Shown here: piece by piece, positions 38,178-48,643 of the stretch | Layout of the letters: each line of letters opens with the position of its first letter | Numbering within the stretch: the stretch's first letter is position 1 | DNA from: Salinibaculum litoreum | Lineage (GTDB): Archaea > Halobacteriota > Halobacteria > Halobacteriales > Haloarculaceae | Assembly (NCBI GenBank): GCA_009789175.1 | Contig: CP046866.1 | Span: 1,922,001 to 1,986,000 of the forward strand | Direction of reading: 5' to 3' | DNA: 64,000 nt | Translations under genes and position numbers: made by a program | The notes under the pieces: model-generated | Database searches by the model: none | Told to the model about the DNA's origin: nothing | Seen by the model: the letters and a program-made list of their open reading frames with translations, nothing else

Positions 38178-38608
38178 GTTATAGCATCGACACTGCAAAT
38201 AAATGAATCTACTGGCACACGGTAGGCCCTACATACCGGAGCCAGGACAGGCGCTCGACCGACAAACCTAGTTCAGTCACCGAAACGGACCACTACGAAC
38301 AGGTCTGCTTGGTGCCGCAACCTTGCTGTCGGGGCGACTCCAACAGTGGACACCGGATTCCCGGAGACATTCACCGGTAACAGGGACGGAACCACCCCTG
38401 ATGGGACATGTACGAACCCCCGAACCGCAAGACGGCAACCCATCGGTACGTGTTCACGTGGGTGTACGCACCCGAACCTTATCGGCAATACTATCCTGAG
38501 GAGGGGAAGTGTGGCGGTTTTCTCCGTGATGGGGTAGGTAAAGGGGCTGTGGTGATAGGAAAGGACAAGAGCGGCAGTTGCCCCCAGCAGGCTGCCGACT
38601 GGTCAACT
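38178..38608. other. Gene-free interval of 431 bases upstream of the nitrite/sulfite reductase gene
   Basis: No credible gene. Contains the TATA-like box of the 38022 gene at the left end, a pair of TGTACG-ACCC-GAACC direct repeats (38409-38426 and 38463-38478) and two small perfect palindromes between and within them: ACGTG-TT-CACGT (38448-38459) and GGGTG-TACG-CACCC (38460-38473). A 67-codon open extension of nirA across this region is rejected because the repeats lie in it. Confidence 0.6.
38409..38478 (+). promoter_or_regulatory. Direct-repeat cluster, candidate operator for nirA
   Basis: TGTACGAACCCCCGAACC (38409) and TGTACGCACCCGAACC (38463) share 15 positions with a two-base gap and start 54 bp apart; the palindromes ACGTGTTCACGT and GGGTGTACGCACCC overlap the second. 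The position 130-200 bp upstream of the nirA start fits a regulator-binding region. The regulator is unknown. Confidence 0.4.
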
Positions 38609-40333
38609 ATGAACACAGTAGAAGAATGGAAAGAAGAGAAGCACCCGCTCGAAATGGTCGAGCTGGTCAGAGAGTTCGCGGAAGAGGGTCTCACGTTCGA
38701 CGAAATCGAGGAGCGAGAGGGTCCCGGTGTCTGGGAGCGCATGAAGTGGACAGGCATGTACACTCATGGCGTCCAGCGCGGCTACATCATGATGCGCACC
38801 AAGGTGCCCGGCGGTTATCTCACCCCCGAGCAGGCCGAGGTCATCGGTGAAGTCGCCACGGAGTACGCCACCGCACCCGAGGAGTACGGCGGCGAGGAGC
38901 AAAACGAACTGTGGGGCGATGCGTTCCTCGACATCACGACCCGACAGGACATCCAGAAACACTGGATAGAAATCGAGGATGTCCCCGAAATCTGGGACAA
39001 GTACGACGAGGTGGGGCTGACCACGATCGGCGGCTGTGGTGACAGCGCCCGCAACGTTCTGGGCTGTCCCGCTGCCGGACTCTCGGACCACGAGTGTTTC
39101 AACGCACAGCCCGTCGTCGACGCCGTCTCTGACTTCTTCGAGAACAACCGCGAGTACGGCAACCTCCCCCGGAAGTTCAAGATGACGATTACCGGCTGTG
39201 CGGAGGACTGCTCGCAGTCACAGATCAACGACATCGGCCTCACGCCGGCGAAAAAGGAGATTGACGGCGAGTGGCAGTACGGCTTCCACGCGAAGGTCGG
39301 CGGCGGCCTCTCCGATGGGCCACGCATGGCCTCCCCGCTGGATGTCTTCATCGCGCCGGAGGACGCCGTGGAGTTCTGTCGTGCAGTCGCACAGACGTTC
39401 AAGGAACTGGGCGACCGCAACAACCGCGGAGTCTGCCGGATGCGCTATCTGGTCCAGCAGATGGGCCCCGAGAAATTCGAGGAAGCAATCCGTGACCGCG
39501 CGAGCATCGAGTTCCCGGAAAGCGGCGTCGACCTCACGGAAGGCTACACCGGCGACCACGTCGGCGTCCACGACATGAAAGAGGACGGGCTGAAATACGT
39601 CGGGTTCAACGTCATCGGCGGCCGGATGGGTGGCGAGGAGTTCACCGAGGCCGCCCGTGCCGCAAAGGAGTACGGCACCGAGGAGGCCTCGGTCCGACTG
39701 GCGACCGACCAGAACTTCCTCGTCACGCACATCCCCGAAGAAAACGTCGAGGACCTGCTCGCGGAGGACTTCGCCACGGAGTACCAGCCAGACCCCGGTC
39801 CGTTCTCGCGGGGCGCGGTCGGCTGTACCGGCAACGAGTTCTGTAACTACGCCATCATCGAGACGAAAAAGCGGACCAAGCGGTGGGCTCGCGAACTCGA
39901 CGAGCGCATCGACACGCCGGAGGACCTCGACGTTGTCCGGATGCACATGTCCGGTTGCTCGGCCTCGTGTGCCCAGCCACAGATCGCCGACATCGGCTTC
40001 CGCGGTGAGACAGTGAAAGTCGGAGAGGACGGCGAGACAGACATCCCCGAGGATGCCGACGCCGGCGACTACGAGAACCTCATCGAAGGGATGGACTTCG
40101 GGCTCGGCGGTGCACTCGGGACGGACAACGAGTTCATCGACTGGGTCGAGACCGCAGTCCCGGCACACGCCGTGATTCCCGCCCTCGAACAGCTCTTCGA
40201 TGCCTACGTCGACGAGCGTGTCGAGGGCGAGCGCTTCTACGAGTGGAGCCGTCGGGTCGACAACGACCGCCTGCGCTCGATTATGCAACAGGCAGATGCC
40301 AACGTATCCGGAGGTGTCGCTCATGGCGACTGA
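38609..40333 (+). CDS. nirA: Siroheme/4Fe-4S nitrite or sulfite reductase
   Basis: 574 residues with two ferredoxin-like plus siroheme half-domains. The 4Fe-4S/siroheme ligands are Cys406, Cys412 (GCTGNEFCNY) and Cys450, Cys454 (SGCSASCAQP), spaced C-x5-C and C-x3-C as in assimilatory reductases. The first half repeat has GCGDSARNVLGCP. The family reduces nitrite to ammonia or sulfite to sulfide with six electrons; haloarchaeal members are usually annotated as ferredoxin-nitrite reductase, but sulfite cannot be excluded. MNTVEEWKEEKHP at 38609 is the start. It overlaps by 11 bp the FrhB-type gene, implying that protein is the electron donor. Confidence 0.9.
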   Translation: MNTVEEWKEEKHPLEMVELVREFAEEGLTFDEIEEREGPGVWERMKWTGMYTHGVQRGYIMMRTKVPGGYLTPEQAEVIGEVATEYATAPEEYGGEEQNELWGDAFLDITTRQDIQKHWIEIEDVPEIWDKYDEVGLTTIGGCGDSARNVLGCPAAGLSDHECFNAQPVVDAVSDFFENNREYGNLPRKFKMTITGCAEDCSQSQINDIGLTPAKKEIDGEWQYGFHAKVGGGLSDGPRMASPLDVFIAPEDAVEFCRAVAQTFKELGDRNNRGVCRMRYLVQQMGPEKFEEAIRDRASIEFPESGVDLTEGYTGDHVGVHDMKEDGLKYVGFNVIGGRMGGEEFTEAARAAKEYGTEEASVRLATDQNFLVTHIPEENVEDLLAEDFATEYQPDPGPFSRGAVGCTGNEFCNYAIIETKKRTKRWARELDERIDTPEDLDVVRMHMSGCSASCAQPQIADIGFRGETVKVGEDGETDIPEDADAGDYENLIEGMDFGLGGALGTDNEFIDWVETAVPAHAVIPALEQLFDAYVDERVEGERFYEWSRRVDNDRLRSIMQQADANVSGGVAHGD

Positions 40334-42047
40334 ACATCCCGAGGAGCCGGAACTCATCGAGGACGCACCCGAACCGCCCATGGACCCGGGCGTCAGTGAG
40401 ACGGCCGACGACGGCCGGAGTGGTCACCTGCCGGGTGTCCCCGAGGCCGGCAGCGACGGCCCCGGTGTCCCACAGGTCGATGGCCACGGCGGCCACACCC
40501 CCGCACAGACCGAGGGAATTCACGACGAGGCTGGCCGTCACAGTAGCCCCGGCCACGAGACAGCAGCCGAACACGACCACGCAGCCACCGATGACGAGGA
40601 GTGCTGTGGTGGGAGCTGTCACTGTGGTGAGGACGGCGAAAAGCGTGCCATCGCCGACGGTGCCGGTGCGGAGGCCGCCGGTGGCGAGCCGACGAACGTC
40701 ACCGAGGACGGCGAGCTGGCAAACCTGGAGTTCACCGAGCCCACGGAGGGCAAGAGCCAGCCACTCCCCGGCGAGAGCCACGGAGAGGACTCCGAACGCC
40801 CCGATAAGCGCGTGGGCGTTCCGGACGGCGTGGACCTGGATACGCCGGGCTACTCCATCCGGTCGGAGATGAACGACATCGAGACGCCCGACGAGAAGAC
40901 GTGGTTCATGGAACTGGACGAAGCAGTCATCCAGGCCGACCGCTGTATCCAGTGTGGGACCTGTGTCGCGGCCTGTCCCTCCGACTCCATCGGCATCGGC
41001 GACGATGGACTCCCGGAACTCGTCAAGATGTGTACCGGCTGTTCGCTGTGTTGGGACTTCTGTCCCCGCGGCGGCATGCGCTACGAGCGTCAGTGGAAGA
41101 TCACCGGCGGCGAGGACAACGTCAAGGGTGCCGGCGACCCCATCACGGAGTTCTCCGCCCGCGTCGAGGAGGACTGGCGGCACAGCTCCCAGGACGGCGG
41201 CGTCGTTACGGGCGTCCTCATCCAGTTGATGGAGGAGGGCGAAATCGACGGTGCACTCATCGCCAGCGAGTCCGAGGAGGACCCCTGGAAGGCCGAGGGC
41301 TTCATGGCCACCAGCCCCGAGGAGCTCAAGGCGAACACCGGCACCATCTACAACCAGACGATGGCGCTCGGTCATCTGGACTTCTCGCAGTGGGAGGACA
41401 AATTCGAGAAGGACTGGGAGGACATCTCGCTGGCTGTAGTGGGCACGCCCTGTGAAATCGAGGGCATCCGCGCACTGCAGGACTTCGACTGGGAGTACGG
41501 CTCCCAGGAAGAGGGCGTTCGCGCAATCGACTACAGGATTGCGCTGATGTGTACGAAGAACTTCAATTACCAGTCGCTCATCGGCGAGGAACTGCAAGAG
41601 GAGCGCGGCATCGACATCGACAACGTCGGCAAGATGGACGTGCTCCACGGCAAGCTGATGGTCGACGACAAAGAGGGCGAGCGCATCCTCGAAGAGGATA
41701 TCGAGAACTTCCACGACGCCGCGCTCAAAGGCTGTAACGAGTGTGCCGACTTCACGGGCTTCTGTGCGGACCTCACCGTGGGCTCGGTCGGCTCCAGCGA
41801 CGAGTACTCCTCGGTCATCGTCCGGACCGAGCAGGGGCTGAACGCGTGGGAGGCCACCGAACCCCACCTCGACTACCACGACCTCGAAGACAAATCCGCA
41901 GTCGGCAAACTGCAGGGCTGGGACAAGAAGAAGGCCTTCGAGAGCCTCGAACGGCCCTTCGAGCCGGACGCCCCACGGTTCATCGACTACGAGGACCACG
42001 CCGAGAACTACGGCACCGTCAAGAACCCCCACGACGACGACCACTGA
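40323..42047 (+). CDS. FrhB/coenzyme F420 dehydrogenase-type Fe-S protein with His/Cys-rich N-terminal extension
   Basis: 574 residues. The first 190 are disordered, rich in Gly, Glu, His and Asp, and include a dense Cys cluster (Cys94, Cys95, Cys99, Cys101 in CCGGSCHCG) that could bind metal. Two 4Fe-4S motifs follow: CIQCGTCVAACP (Cys208-Cys218) and CTGCSLCWDFCP (Cys237-Cys247). The C-terminal half is the FrhB/FdhB domain, with TPCEIEG-type residues and GCNECADFTG, expected to bind FAD and F420. Such subunits move electrons between F420H2 and Fe-S partners. Start MATEHPEEPE overlaps nirA by 11 bp. The likely role is electron supply to the reductase; ferredoxin oxidation is an alternative. 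Confidence 0.88.
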   Translation: MATEHPEEPELIEDAPEPPMDPGVSETADDGRSGHLPGVPEAGSDGPGVPQVDGHGGHTPAQTEGIHDEAGRHSSPGHETAAEHDHAATDDEECCGGSCHCGEDGEKRAIADGAGAEAAGGEPTNVTEDGELANLEFTEPTEGKSQPLPGESHGEDSERPDKRVGVPDGVDLDTPGYSIRSEMNDIETPDEKTWFMELDEAVIQADRCIQCGTCVAACPSDSIGIGDDGLPELVKMCTGCSLCWDFCPRGGMRYERQWKITGGEDNVKGAGDPITEFSARVEEDWRHSSQDGGVVTGVLIQLMEEGEIDGALIASESEEDPWKAEGFMATSPEELKANTGTIYNQTMALGHLDFSQWEDKFEKDWEDISLAVVGTPCEIEGIRALQDFDWEYGSQEEGVRAIDYRIALMCTKNFNYQSLIGEELQEERGIDIDNVGKMDVLHGKLMVDDKEGERILEEDIENFHDAALKGCNECADFTGFCADLTVGSVGSSDEYSSVIVRTEQGLNAWEATEPHLDYHDLEDKSAVGKLQGWDKKKAFESLERPFEPDAPRFIDYEDHAENYGTVKNPHDDDH

Positions 42048-47305: not shown

Positions 47306-48643
47306 CTACGCGTCGGCCGGTCTCCCACCGACCACGGCCCGGAGCGTCTCCGGGCTGTGACGTACCACCACGAGCAGCATGTTGGCGACAAAGGCCATCA
47401 CGCCGACGACGTAGAGGCTGGCACCGACCAGTCGAACGGTATCGGCGGCGACGGGGGACCCTGTCGGGACCAGCACGGCCCCGACCACGAGGGCGACACC
47501 GACAACGAACAGCCAGCAGTCGACAGCGGCGAGGCGACCGTCGTAGAGGTCGTCTATCATCGGGACCTGCTCGAAGCCGAGCCGGTCGCTGTAGCGGTGG
47601 ACCCAGACGATGAAGGGAACGATGTGATACAGCGTCCCGAGGACGACGAAGCCGACGATGCCAAGCACCAGCAGTAGTTGCACGTCTGGCCCGCCGAGTA
47701 TGGCCGACCGGGCCAGCGGGTCCGCAAACCACGCGGGGACGGTCGGAACCGCCCAGACGAGGATAGCAACGACCACGAGACCGTACCGGGTCAACATCGG
47801 CGTCCACTCCACACGGGTCTCGACCAGCCGGCGGGCGAGCACGGCCGCTATCGCGAGCAGGCCGGCGACGACCAGCAGACCGCCGGCGGTAGCGACGACG
47901 GCAACCTCGAAGAGGCGACCACCGGCAAGGCCGAGGACGCCAAGCGGGTAGGTAACTGTCTCGACACGTTTCAGGGTGGTATCGACGCCGTGGAGGTCGG
48001 TCTGGGTGAACATCGTCCCCAGCTGGTAGAGTGCGCCAAGAACGGTCGTCAGGACGGCACCGAAGACGGCGACGGTGGCGTGGGTCCCAACGATGCCAGC
48101 ACGGGAGACCGGCAGCGAGTGAGCGTGGCCGGCGTAGGTGGCAGCCAGCAGGAAGCCAAGTGGCGCGAGGAGGGTGAAAAAGCCGAGTGCGAGCGCGAAG
48201 TGCCCTTCTGTGATATCGAGACTGTCGACGGCCGCAAGCGTCCGGCCGATATTGTAGACGAACGCATAGAAGCCGGCAACGAGCAGAAGTCCAGCTGACA
48301 GGAACAGCCAGCCGGCCCCGGTGAGGAAAGCAGCGGCCAACCCGAGGACACCGAGACAGACCAGCGAGAGCTGGTGAGTCGCCAGCCGCCGGGAGTGCAG
48401 TGAAACGCCCGACCACACCGGAACGAACTGCGTCATCGCACCCATGATGGTCACACAGACCCACCCGACCAGCAGGAGATGGAGGTAGGCAAACCGCGAG
48501 AGCCCGCCGACAACGCCCAGCGCCCGCCCCACACCGAGGAGACCGCCCAGAAGGAGAAAACCGAAGCCGACGACGAAATGCCGCAGCGGAATCGTCATCG
48601 GGGGCTGGGCGTCAGTCTCGACATCGGCCGGAACCGCTCCCAT
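47306..48643 (-). CDS. Twelve-helix membrane protein resembling heme-copper oxidase subunit I/NnrS-type proteins
   Basis: 445 residues, about twelve hydrophobic helices. Helix 2 has YLHLLLVGW and helix 3 GAMTQFVPVWSG, and later helices contain GTHATVAVFGA, LYQLGTMF and LYHIVPFIVWVHRYSDRLG. These histidine-in-helix patterns recall heme-binding subunit-I/NnrS-like proteins, but the paired His of the CuB site and the usual HPEVY are absent, so oxidase activity is doubtful. An N-terminal acidic tail precedes helix 1. MGAVPADVET at 48643 is the start. It lies 68 bases after mptE and 40 before the cupin gene. Confidence 0.65.
   Translation of the reverse strand: MGAVPADVETDAQPPMTIPLRHFVVGFGFLLLGGLLGVGRALGVVGGLSRFAYLHLLLVGWVCVTIMGAMTQFVPVWSGVSLHSRRLATHQLSLVCLGVLGLAAAFLTGAGWLFLSAGLLLVAGFYAFVYNIGRTLAAVDSLDITEGHFALALGFFTLLAPLGFLLAATYAGHAHSLPVSRAGIVGTHATVAVFGAVLTTVLGALYQLGTMFTQTDLHGVDTTLKRVETVTYPLGVLGLAGGRLFEVAVVATAGGLLVVAGLLAIAAVLARRLVETRVEWTPMLTRYGLVVVAILVWAVPTVPAWFADPLARSAILGGPDVQLLLVLGIVGFVVLGTLYHIVPFIVWVHRYSDRLGFEQVPMIDDLYDGRLAAVDCWLFVVGVALVVGAVLVPTGSPVAADTVRLVGASLYVVGVMAFVANMLLVVVRHSPETLRAVVGGRPADA

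Follow-up and report, generated by a model that had tools for sequence, protein, structure and literature searches.

Overlapping siroheme reductase and FrhB-type genes of Salinibaculum litoreum, a predicted F420H2-dependent assimilatory sulfite reductase

Which carrier feeds electrons to a haloarchaeal siroheme reductase, and does that enzyme reduce sulfite or nitrite? The question is raised by two overlapping genes at positions 38609-42047 of a 64,000-nucleotide stretch of Salinibaculum litoreum DNA (contig CP046866.1, positions 1,922,001 to 1,986,000; referred to here as the window), which encode a siroheme-type reductase and an FrhB/FdhB-domain iron-sulfur protein. We consider it likely that the products of the two genes together form a single two-subunit sulfite reductase of the cytoplasm, which would be fed by reduced coenzyme F420 (F420H2). 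What F420 does in haloarchaea has been described as enigmatic, and just one F420-dependent reaction has been reported (PMC8305020). If the prediction is true, the pair gives F420 a concrete role: as a low-potential two-electron carrier, it would supply sulfite reduction in an aerobe.

The pair is a member of a kind that has already been predicted, and the idea of a preliminary description of this locus is therefore not new. Susanti and Mukhopadhyay (2012; PMC3448663) gave the same haloarchaeal pair the name aFsr and described it as a putative F420H2-dependent assimilatory siroheme sulfite reductase with an aSir-type alpha subunit and an Fsr-N-type beta subunit; their tree legend also includes Rubrobacter xylanophilus and Thermobaculum. 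The name was taken up again in PMC9295563. New here are the Rubrobacteria gene context, linkage counts, a comparison of substrate residues, and a rhodanese-fused sister paralogue; the accessible portion of PMC3448663 holds no substrate-residue test, Rubrobacter gene context, or rhodanese paralogue.

The gene pair and its context in Rubrobacteria

The stop-free translation of 38609-40333 is a complete siroheme-type reductase with matches to NIR_SIR (PF01077, E value of 4e-52) and NIR_SIR_ferr (PF03460). An alternative upstream ATG lies at 38408; the conserved start is 38609, homologues opening with MNTVExxKxEKHP. The product of 40323-42047 is likewise complete and matches FrhB_FdhB_C (PF04432, 3.7e-33), FrhB_FdhB_N (PF04422, 3.6e-19), and 4Fe-4S dicluster domains. 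Translations, Pfam matches, and coordinates confirm what the preliminary description had reported, a reductase gene that overlaps an FrhB/FdhB gene by exactly 11 base pairs (bp). The features are as follows, type A denoting homologues whose FrhB protein is at least 70% identical.

38609..40333, + strand: siroheme-[4Fe-4S] reductase subunit, 574 amino acids, predicted assimilatory sulfite reductase of aFsr-alpha type; PF01077 and PF03460 twice each; invariant R112, R148, K189, K191, C406, C412, C450, and C454
39170..39181, + strand: R-K-F-K motif (R188-K191) with the K-x-K pair of sulfite reductases, which alignments show as K-x-N in plant and haloarchaeal nitrite reductases
40323..40333, + strand: 11-bp frame overlap (predicted translational coupling), an overlap of 8 or 11 bp being shared by 74 of the 80 named loci with homologues
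40323..42047, + strand: FrhB/FdhB-type iron-sulfur flavoprotein subunit, 574 amino acids, aFsr-beta type and putative F420H2 oxidase; PF04432, PF04422, and Fer4; best solved relatives 8riu_B and Fsr 7np8_A
40602..40628, + strand: Cys-rich motif CCGGSCHCG within the acidic N-terminal extension, similar in nearly all type-A homologues
40923..41072, + strand: two-[4Fe-4S] ferredoxin domain, residues 201-250, as in Fsr-N and FpoF, from Pfam and sequence comparison
41154..41861, + strand: FrhB core, residues 278-513, with the flavin adenine dinucleotide (FAD) helix QDGGVVT, cluster cysteines C377, C410, C471, and C474, and the GSVGS loop, from alignment with residue roles taken from PMC3591093

Homologues of the FrhB protein were found in 33 of 39 Rubrobacteria genomes. 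The order cysH-reductase-FrhB occurs in 23 of 23 loci read, followed by sat (21 loci) and cysC (21), and 15 loci have a TauE/SafE-type transporter gene. In the same orientation and mostly as immediate upstream neighbours, cofE (19/23) and cofC (18/23) precede the cluster. Loci without some of these neighbours include three that are cut by contig ends (L242, L244, and L246). The neighbours are named by curated models above their cut-offs (F420_cofC, F420_cofE, phosphoadenylyl-sulfate reductase, sulfate adenylyltransferase, and adenylyl-sulfate kinase) and supported by Pfam (CofC, F420_ligase, PAPS_reduct, ATP-sulfurylase, APS_kinase, and TauE). Across the loci read, among them that of Rubrobacter taiwanensis (L242, 161-5176) and L254 to L272, cofC-cofE stands directly upstream of cysH-sir-frhB-sat-cysC in most cases. 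This neighbourhood, of which we found no description in the literature searched, unites the substrate, sulfite from CysH, with the proposed cofactor F420 and is the strongest evidence of the analysis. The earlier prediction is much strengthened because the Rubrobacter relatives adjoin both sulfate-assimilation and F420-making genes. With sulfate activation, reduction of 3'-phosphoadenylyl sulfate (PAPS), the pair, and F420 biosynthesis together, these clusters make a 14-year-old prediction directly testable, and they suggest that many "ferredoxin--nitrite reductases" in databases are misnamed.

The two genes are also linked almost without exception. Among 145 halobacterial genomes, 39 carry 40 type-A FrhB genes, and there are 39 type-A reductases; an FrhB gene directly follows the reductase in 39 of 39 cases, leaving one FrhB gene on its own. 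When GTDB genomes were scanned, 80 named loci came up, of which 74 are haloarchaeal and 6 actinobacterial/Rubrobacter, and linkage holds in all 80. The preliminary description had proposed a survey of linkage across Halobacteria, and both counts uphold the linkage. Overlaps in the named loci are 11 bp (45/80), 8 bp (29/80), or 1 bp (5/80), with a 3-bp spacing in the remaining locus. The overlaps of 8 or 11 bp rule out chance overlap, and the overlapping genes are a practically inseparable unit. A lone plasmid-borne type-A FrhB gene with no reductase nearby is seen at L106 (G105:C7) and L007 (Halopiger xanaduensis pHALXA01, 435163-436305), and it is missing from the gene table of pHALXA01.

A sister pair, type B, consists of a reductase frame of about 800 amino acids, which two plasmid records annotate as a protein with a rhodanese domain, and then an FrhB gene whose product is 42 to 50% identical. 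Linkage is evident from coordinates in 17 of 18 cases and upon reading of the locus in the 18th. Type-B pairs lie at L107 to L124, L004, and L005; at L005, on Natronococcus occultus plasmid 2, a nosZ-nosD cluster follows. In the reductase tree, types A and B form one clade, and stand-alone reductases fall outside it (support, 100/100); the FrhB tree unites types A and B with Rubrobacter against methanogen-side members (100/99). The trees fit a single linkage event followed by duplication, rhodanese fusion in type B, and exchange between haloarchaea and Rubrobacteria in either direction. They also bear on the alternative that the two proteins are only co-transcribed and act separately. We regard this as very improbable, given near-universal overlapping linkage over two domains of life, in varied neighbourhoods and on megaplasmids, and matching reductase and FrhB trees.

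Substrate and electron donor

The sequences themselves show the domains and cofactor ligands, the overlap, a nearly universal linkage, a common evolutionary history, and, in Rubrobacteria, the neighbouring genes. We infer a physical complex, F420H2 as its donor, sulfite as its physiological substrate in the host, and the source of that sulfite. In the mechanism that we propose, F420H2 would be oxidised at the FAD of the FrhB core, and single electrons would pass to the FrhB [4Fe-4S] cluster, through the two clusters of the ferredoxin domain, and on to the partner's siroheme-[4Fe-4S] center and sulfite. Reduction of sulfite to sulfide takes six electrons and would thus consume three F420H2 per sulfide. 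The built-in ferredoxin domain would take the place of the free ferredoxin used by NirA-type enzymes, and the role of the enzyme would be sulfur assimilation, with sulfite removal in addition. For haloarchaea, an alternative source of sulfite, thiosulfate via rhodanese, has been proposed (PMC3402447).

In F420H2-dependent sulfite reductase (Fsr) of methanogens, sulfite is bound by two arginines and two lysines, stated to be conserved across sulfite reductases (PMC10229431). The corresponding residues R112, R148, K189, and K191, together with the four cluster cysteines C406, C412, C450, and C454, are invariant in the aligned named homologues, and K-x-K is present in 42 of 42 type-A reductases as well as in those of type B. 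In alignments, tobacco nitrite reductase has N at the position of the second lysine, the most informative residue here, with K in a deposited variant that we take to be an N-to-K mutant. Four haloarchaeal reductases have K-x-N, each beside a nitrate-type major facilitator superfamily transporter, and one of them adjoins NasA (NF041323, 1,188 bits versus a cut-off of 1,000). Haloarchaeal NasD is marked by K-x-N and linkage to nasA or a nitrate transporter; the present reductase has the RKFK motif and no nearby nitrate genes. In one genus (g30; L103 and L104), genes for uroporphyrinogen-III methyltransferase and a CbiX-type chelatase, which serve siroheme synthesis, lie divergently beside the pair, in keeping with a siroheme enzyme. 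The evidence points to sulfite, not nitrite, as the substrate. Stand-alone "ferredoxin--nitrite reductase" genes (L125 to L144) are of two kinds: those with K-x-N lie at nitrate loci, and those with K-x-K are linked to DUF7119 and may be sulfite reductases under a wrong name.

Under the automatic name "ferredoxin--nitrite reductase", the same two-subunit enzyme would instead have nitrite as its physiological substrate, whether to assimilate or to detoxify it. Homologues bear that name in databases, and the top NCBIfam models are nitrite-reductase types, albeit below cut-off. Moreover, Fsr and FsrII are known to couple nitrite reduction to F420 (PMC10202398, PMC9295563), and nitrite supports the growth of Natrinema sp. 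J7-2, which has no nas genes (PMC3402447). The K-x-K/K-x-N comparison and the gene context nevertheless weaken nitrite as the main substrate: every type-A member has K-x-K, whereas nitrate-locus reductases have K-x-N; the Rubrobacter homologues sit in cysH-sat-cysC clusters; and no nitrate genes turned up in the conserved surroundings of type-A loci. Searches of the host genome by protein family found neither a Molybdop_Fe4S4 protein (Fe4S4-type nitrate reductase) nor a second siroheme reductase, which indicates that the enzyme does not serve nitrate assimilation in the host. We therefore judge nitrite an improbable physiological substrate. The preliminary description had left the choice between nitrite and sulfite assimilation undecided; the sulfite half is favored by the invariant K-x-K and the Rubrobacter context, and the nitrite half is disfavored by the absence of an Fe4S4-type nitrate reductase from the searched genome.

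The donor is the second point on which readings differ. By sequence, the closest solved structures are those of the F420-reducing carbon monoxide dehydrogenase (CODH) subunit (8riu), Fsr (7np8 and 7npa), FwdI (8rja), and FrhB. A Foldseek search with two AlphaFold models agrees, ranking the same set of F420 enzymes ahead of plant HCAR; the models are of low confidence (mean predicted local distance difference test scores of 50 and 61, with the ferredoxin part below 50) and served for fold search only. Type A and Rubrobacter proteins keep both ferredoxin motifs, the FAD helix QDGG, the four FrhB cluster cysteines, and the GSVGS loop, whose equivalent adjoins the F420 ring in FrhB (PMC3591093). 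Electrons could alternatively enter through the FrhB-type subunit from a donor other than F420H2, either ferredoxin via the ferredoxin domain or a flavin used otherwise, as in HCAR. The FrhB fold also takes in HCAR, which is not known to use F420; nitrite reductases of haloarchaea are regarded as ferredoxin dependent; and conserved lysines at the F420 tail have been lost. We consider such a donor unlikely, since sequence and fold are nearer to F420 enzymes than to HCAR, cofC-cofE adjoin the Rubrobacter cluster, and stand-alone haloarchaeal sulfite/nitrite reductases have no FrhB partner at all. F420H2 is quite probably the electron donor of the pair. The preliminary description had proposed F420H2 rather than ferredoxin: F420H2 is the donor best supported by family and context, and the words "rather than ferredoxin" go beyond this to an inference.

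Several points weigh against an F420H2-dependent sulfite reductase. We found no biochemical test of an aFsr pair in the literature. In the FrhB protein, the lysine of the KY loop is replaced by I, V, or F (GTIY/GSFY), and in the IGKGK turn, the first lysine is lost (H or D) and the second is present in some members only, leaving one lysine or none. By sequence, the phosphate-binding lysines of FrhB are only partly kept, which alters the anion site where the F420 tail would bind. This loss is compatible with F420 use, because FsrII of anaerobic methanotrophic archaea works with F420H2 even though the charge at its F420-tail site has changed (PMC9295563). CofE occurs in 45 of 45 pair-bearing Halobacteria genomes; the prediction requires this, but it is weak evidence because F420 synthesis is near-universal there; we set it aside and counted only the Rubrobacter cof adjacency in favor of F420. 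Siroheme sulfite reductases commonly reduce nitrite too. Finally, the host genome holds two ATP sulfurylase/adenylyl-sulfate (APS) kinase pairs and, as its sole PAPS_reduct protein, a weak match, and a complete sulfate-reduction route is not established in it.

A wider proposal, which we offer tentatively and regard with some doubt, is that F420 drives assimilatory sulfur metabolism in aerobic haloarchaea and Rubrobacter via a cassette exchanged between domains, the rhodanese-fused type B being a second F420-linked sulfur enzyme that would act on sulfane sulfur or thiosulfate-derived sulfite.

Relation to Fsr and other reductases

The preliminary description called the pair a split counterpart of Fsr. 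The pair is indeed obligate, and the cofactor layout of Fsr-N is present. The Fsr of methanogens (MJ0870; 7np8 and 7npa) has the same input half, with two [4Fe-4S] clusters, FAD, and a further [4Fe-4S] cluster, and is about 27 to 30% identical where aligned; the pair would be expected to catalyze the same reaction. Descent by splitting did not hold up. Fsr (groups I and II) is a single polypeptide with the input half first and a Dsr-like, single-repeat reductase half with an inserted ferredoxin, whereas here two genes are present and the reductase is of the two-repeat NirA/aSiR type. The reductase is closest to NirA and plant nitrite reductase (E value of 3e-77 for the latter) and matches Fsr-C only weakly (2e-8). 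We therefore reject gene fission of Fsr, as the reductase halves come from different branches; by sequence, Fsr and aFsr appear to be independent assemblies from the same kind of electron-input module.

No essential difference separates the present pair from the aFsr of PMC3448663. An aSir-type reductase, with ligands for siroheme-[4Fe-4S] and the Arg/Lys sulfite ligands, and an Fsr-N homologue, with an FrhB part and two N-terminal [4Fe-4S] motifs, are encoded by two separate, linked genes. NP_4006A of Natronomonas has 27% identity to Fsr and was called "too distant to assume isofunctionality" (PMC8305020), and NP4004A has been cited as the Natronomonas sulfite reductase (PMC3402447); judged by locus numbers, the two are probably the same kind of pair.

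Stand-alone haloarchaeal siroheme reductases (NasD nitrite reductase and RKWK sulfite-type enzymes) share fold and cofactors with the reductase, at 41 to 48% identity, but have no adjoining FrhB gene and form a separate clade. The overall two-repeat fold is likewise shared by Mycobacterium tuberculosis NirA/SirA (1zj8) and plant nitrite reductase, which are ferredoxin dependent according to their record names and have no FrhB partner. The same stand-alone module of FrhB and two [4Fe-4S] clusters is docked on other enzymes in the zeta subunit of ethanotroph F420-reducing CODH and FwdI (8riu and 8rja) and in FpoF/FqoF; the partner enzyme differs from the reductase found here.

The FrhB protein also has an acidic N-terminal extension of about 180 residues ahead of the ferredoxin domain, which the preliminary description did not mention. 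Otherwise variable, it is conserved in one stretch, NVDExGxLxDLEFTEP, and nearly all type-A homologues have in it a Cys motif of the C-x(n)-C-x-C type (CxCG-like), the cysteines being absent from L103 and L104. As a guess, the extension may dock to the reductase.

Locus and genome setting

Upstream of the pair in the window lie genes for eIF-6, prefoldin, and FtsY; downstream are a methyltransferase gene on the opposite strand and then SRP54. The prefoldin-ftsY position is common to 25 of the 42 type-A loci analyzed, the window included, and because it recurs in this way, the site appears to be an old chromosomal one. Other copies are found at different sites or on megaplasmids (Haloferax mediterranei pHME505, Salinirubellus, and Haladaptatus).

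The sulfate adenylyltransferase and adenylyl-sulfate kinase pairs of the host are near-duplicates (G000:C1:1300431-1301045 and 2099473-2100087; L065 and L066) and lie amid apparent glycan/polysaccharide genes. Given this setting, we did not let them count as proof that sulfate is reduced. Within the window, a gene at 47306-48643 on the minus strand encodes a predicted membrane protein with no Pfam match, relatives of which are also found near four type-B reductase loci.

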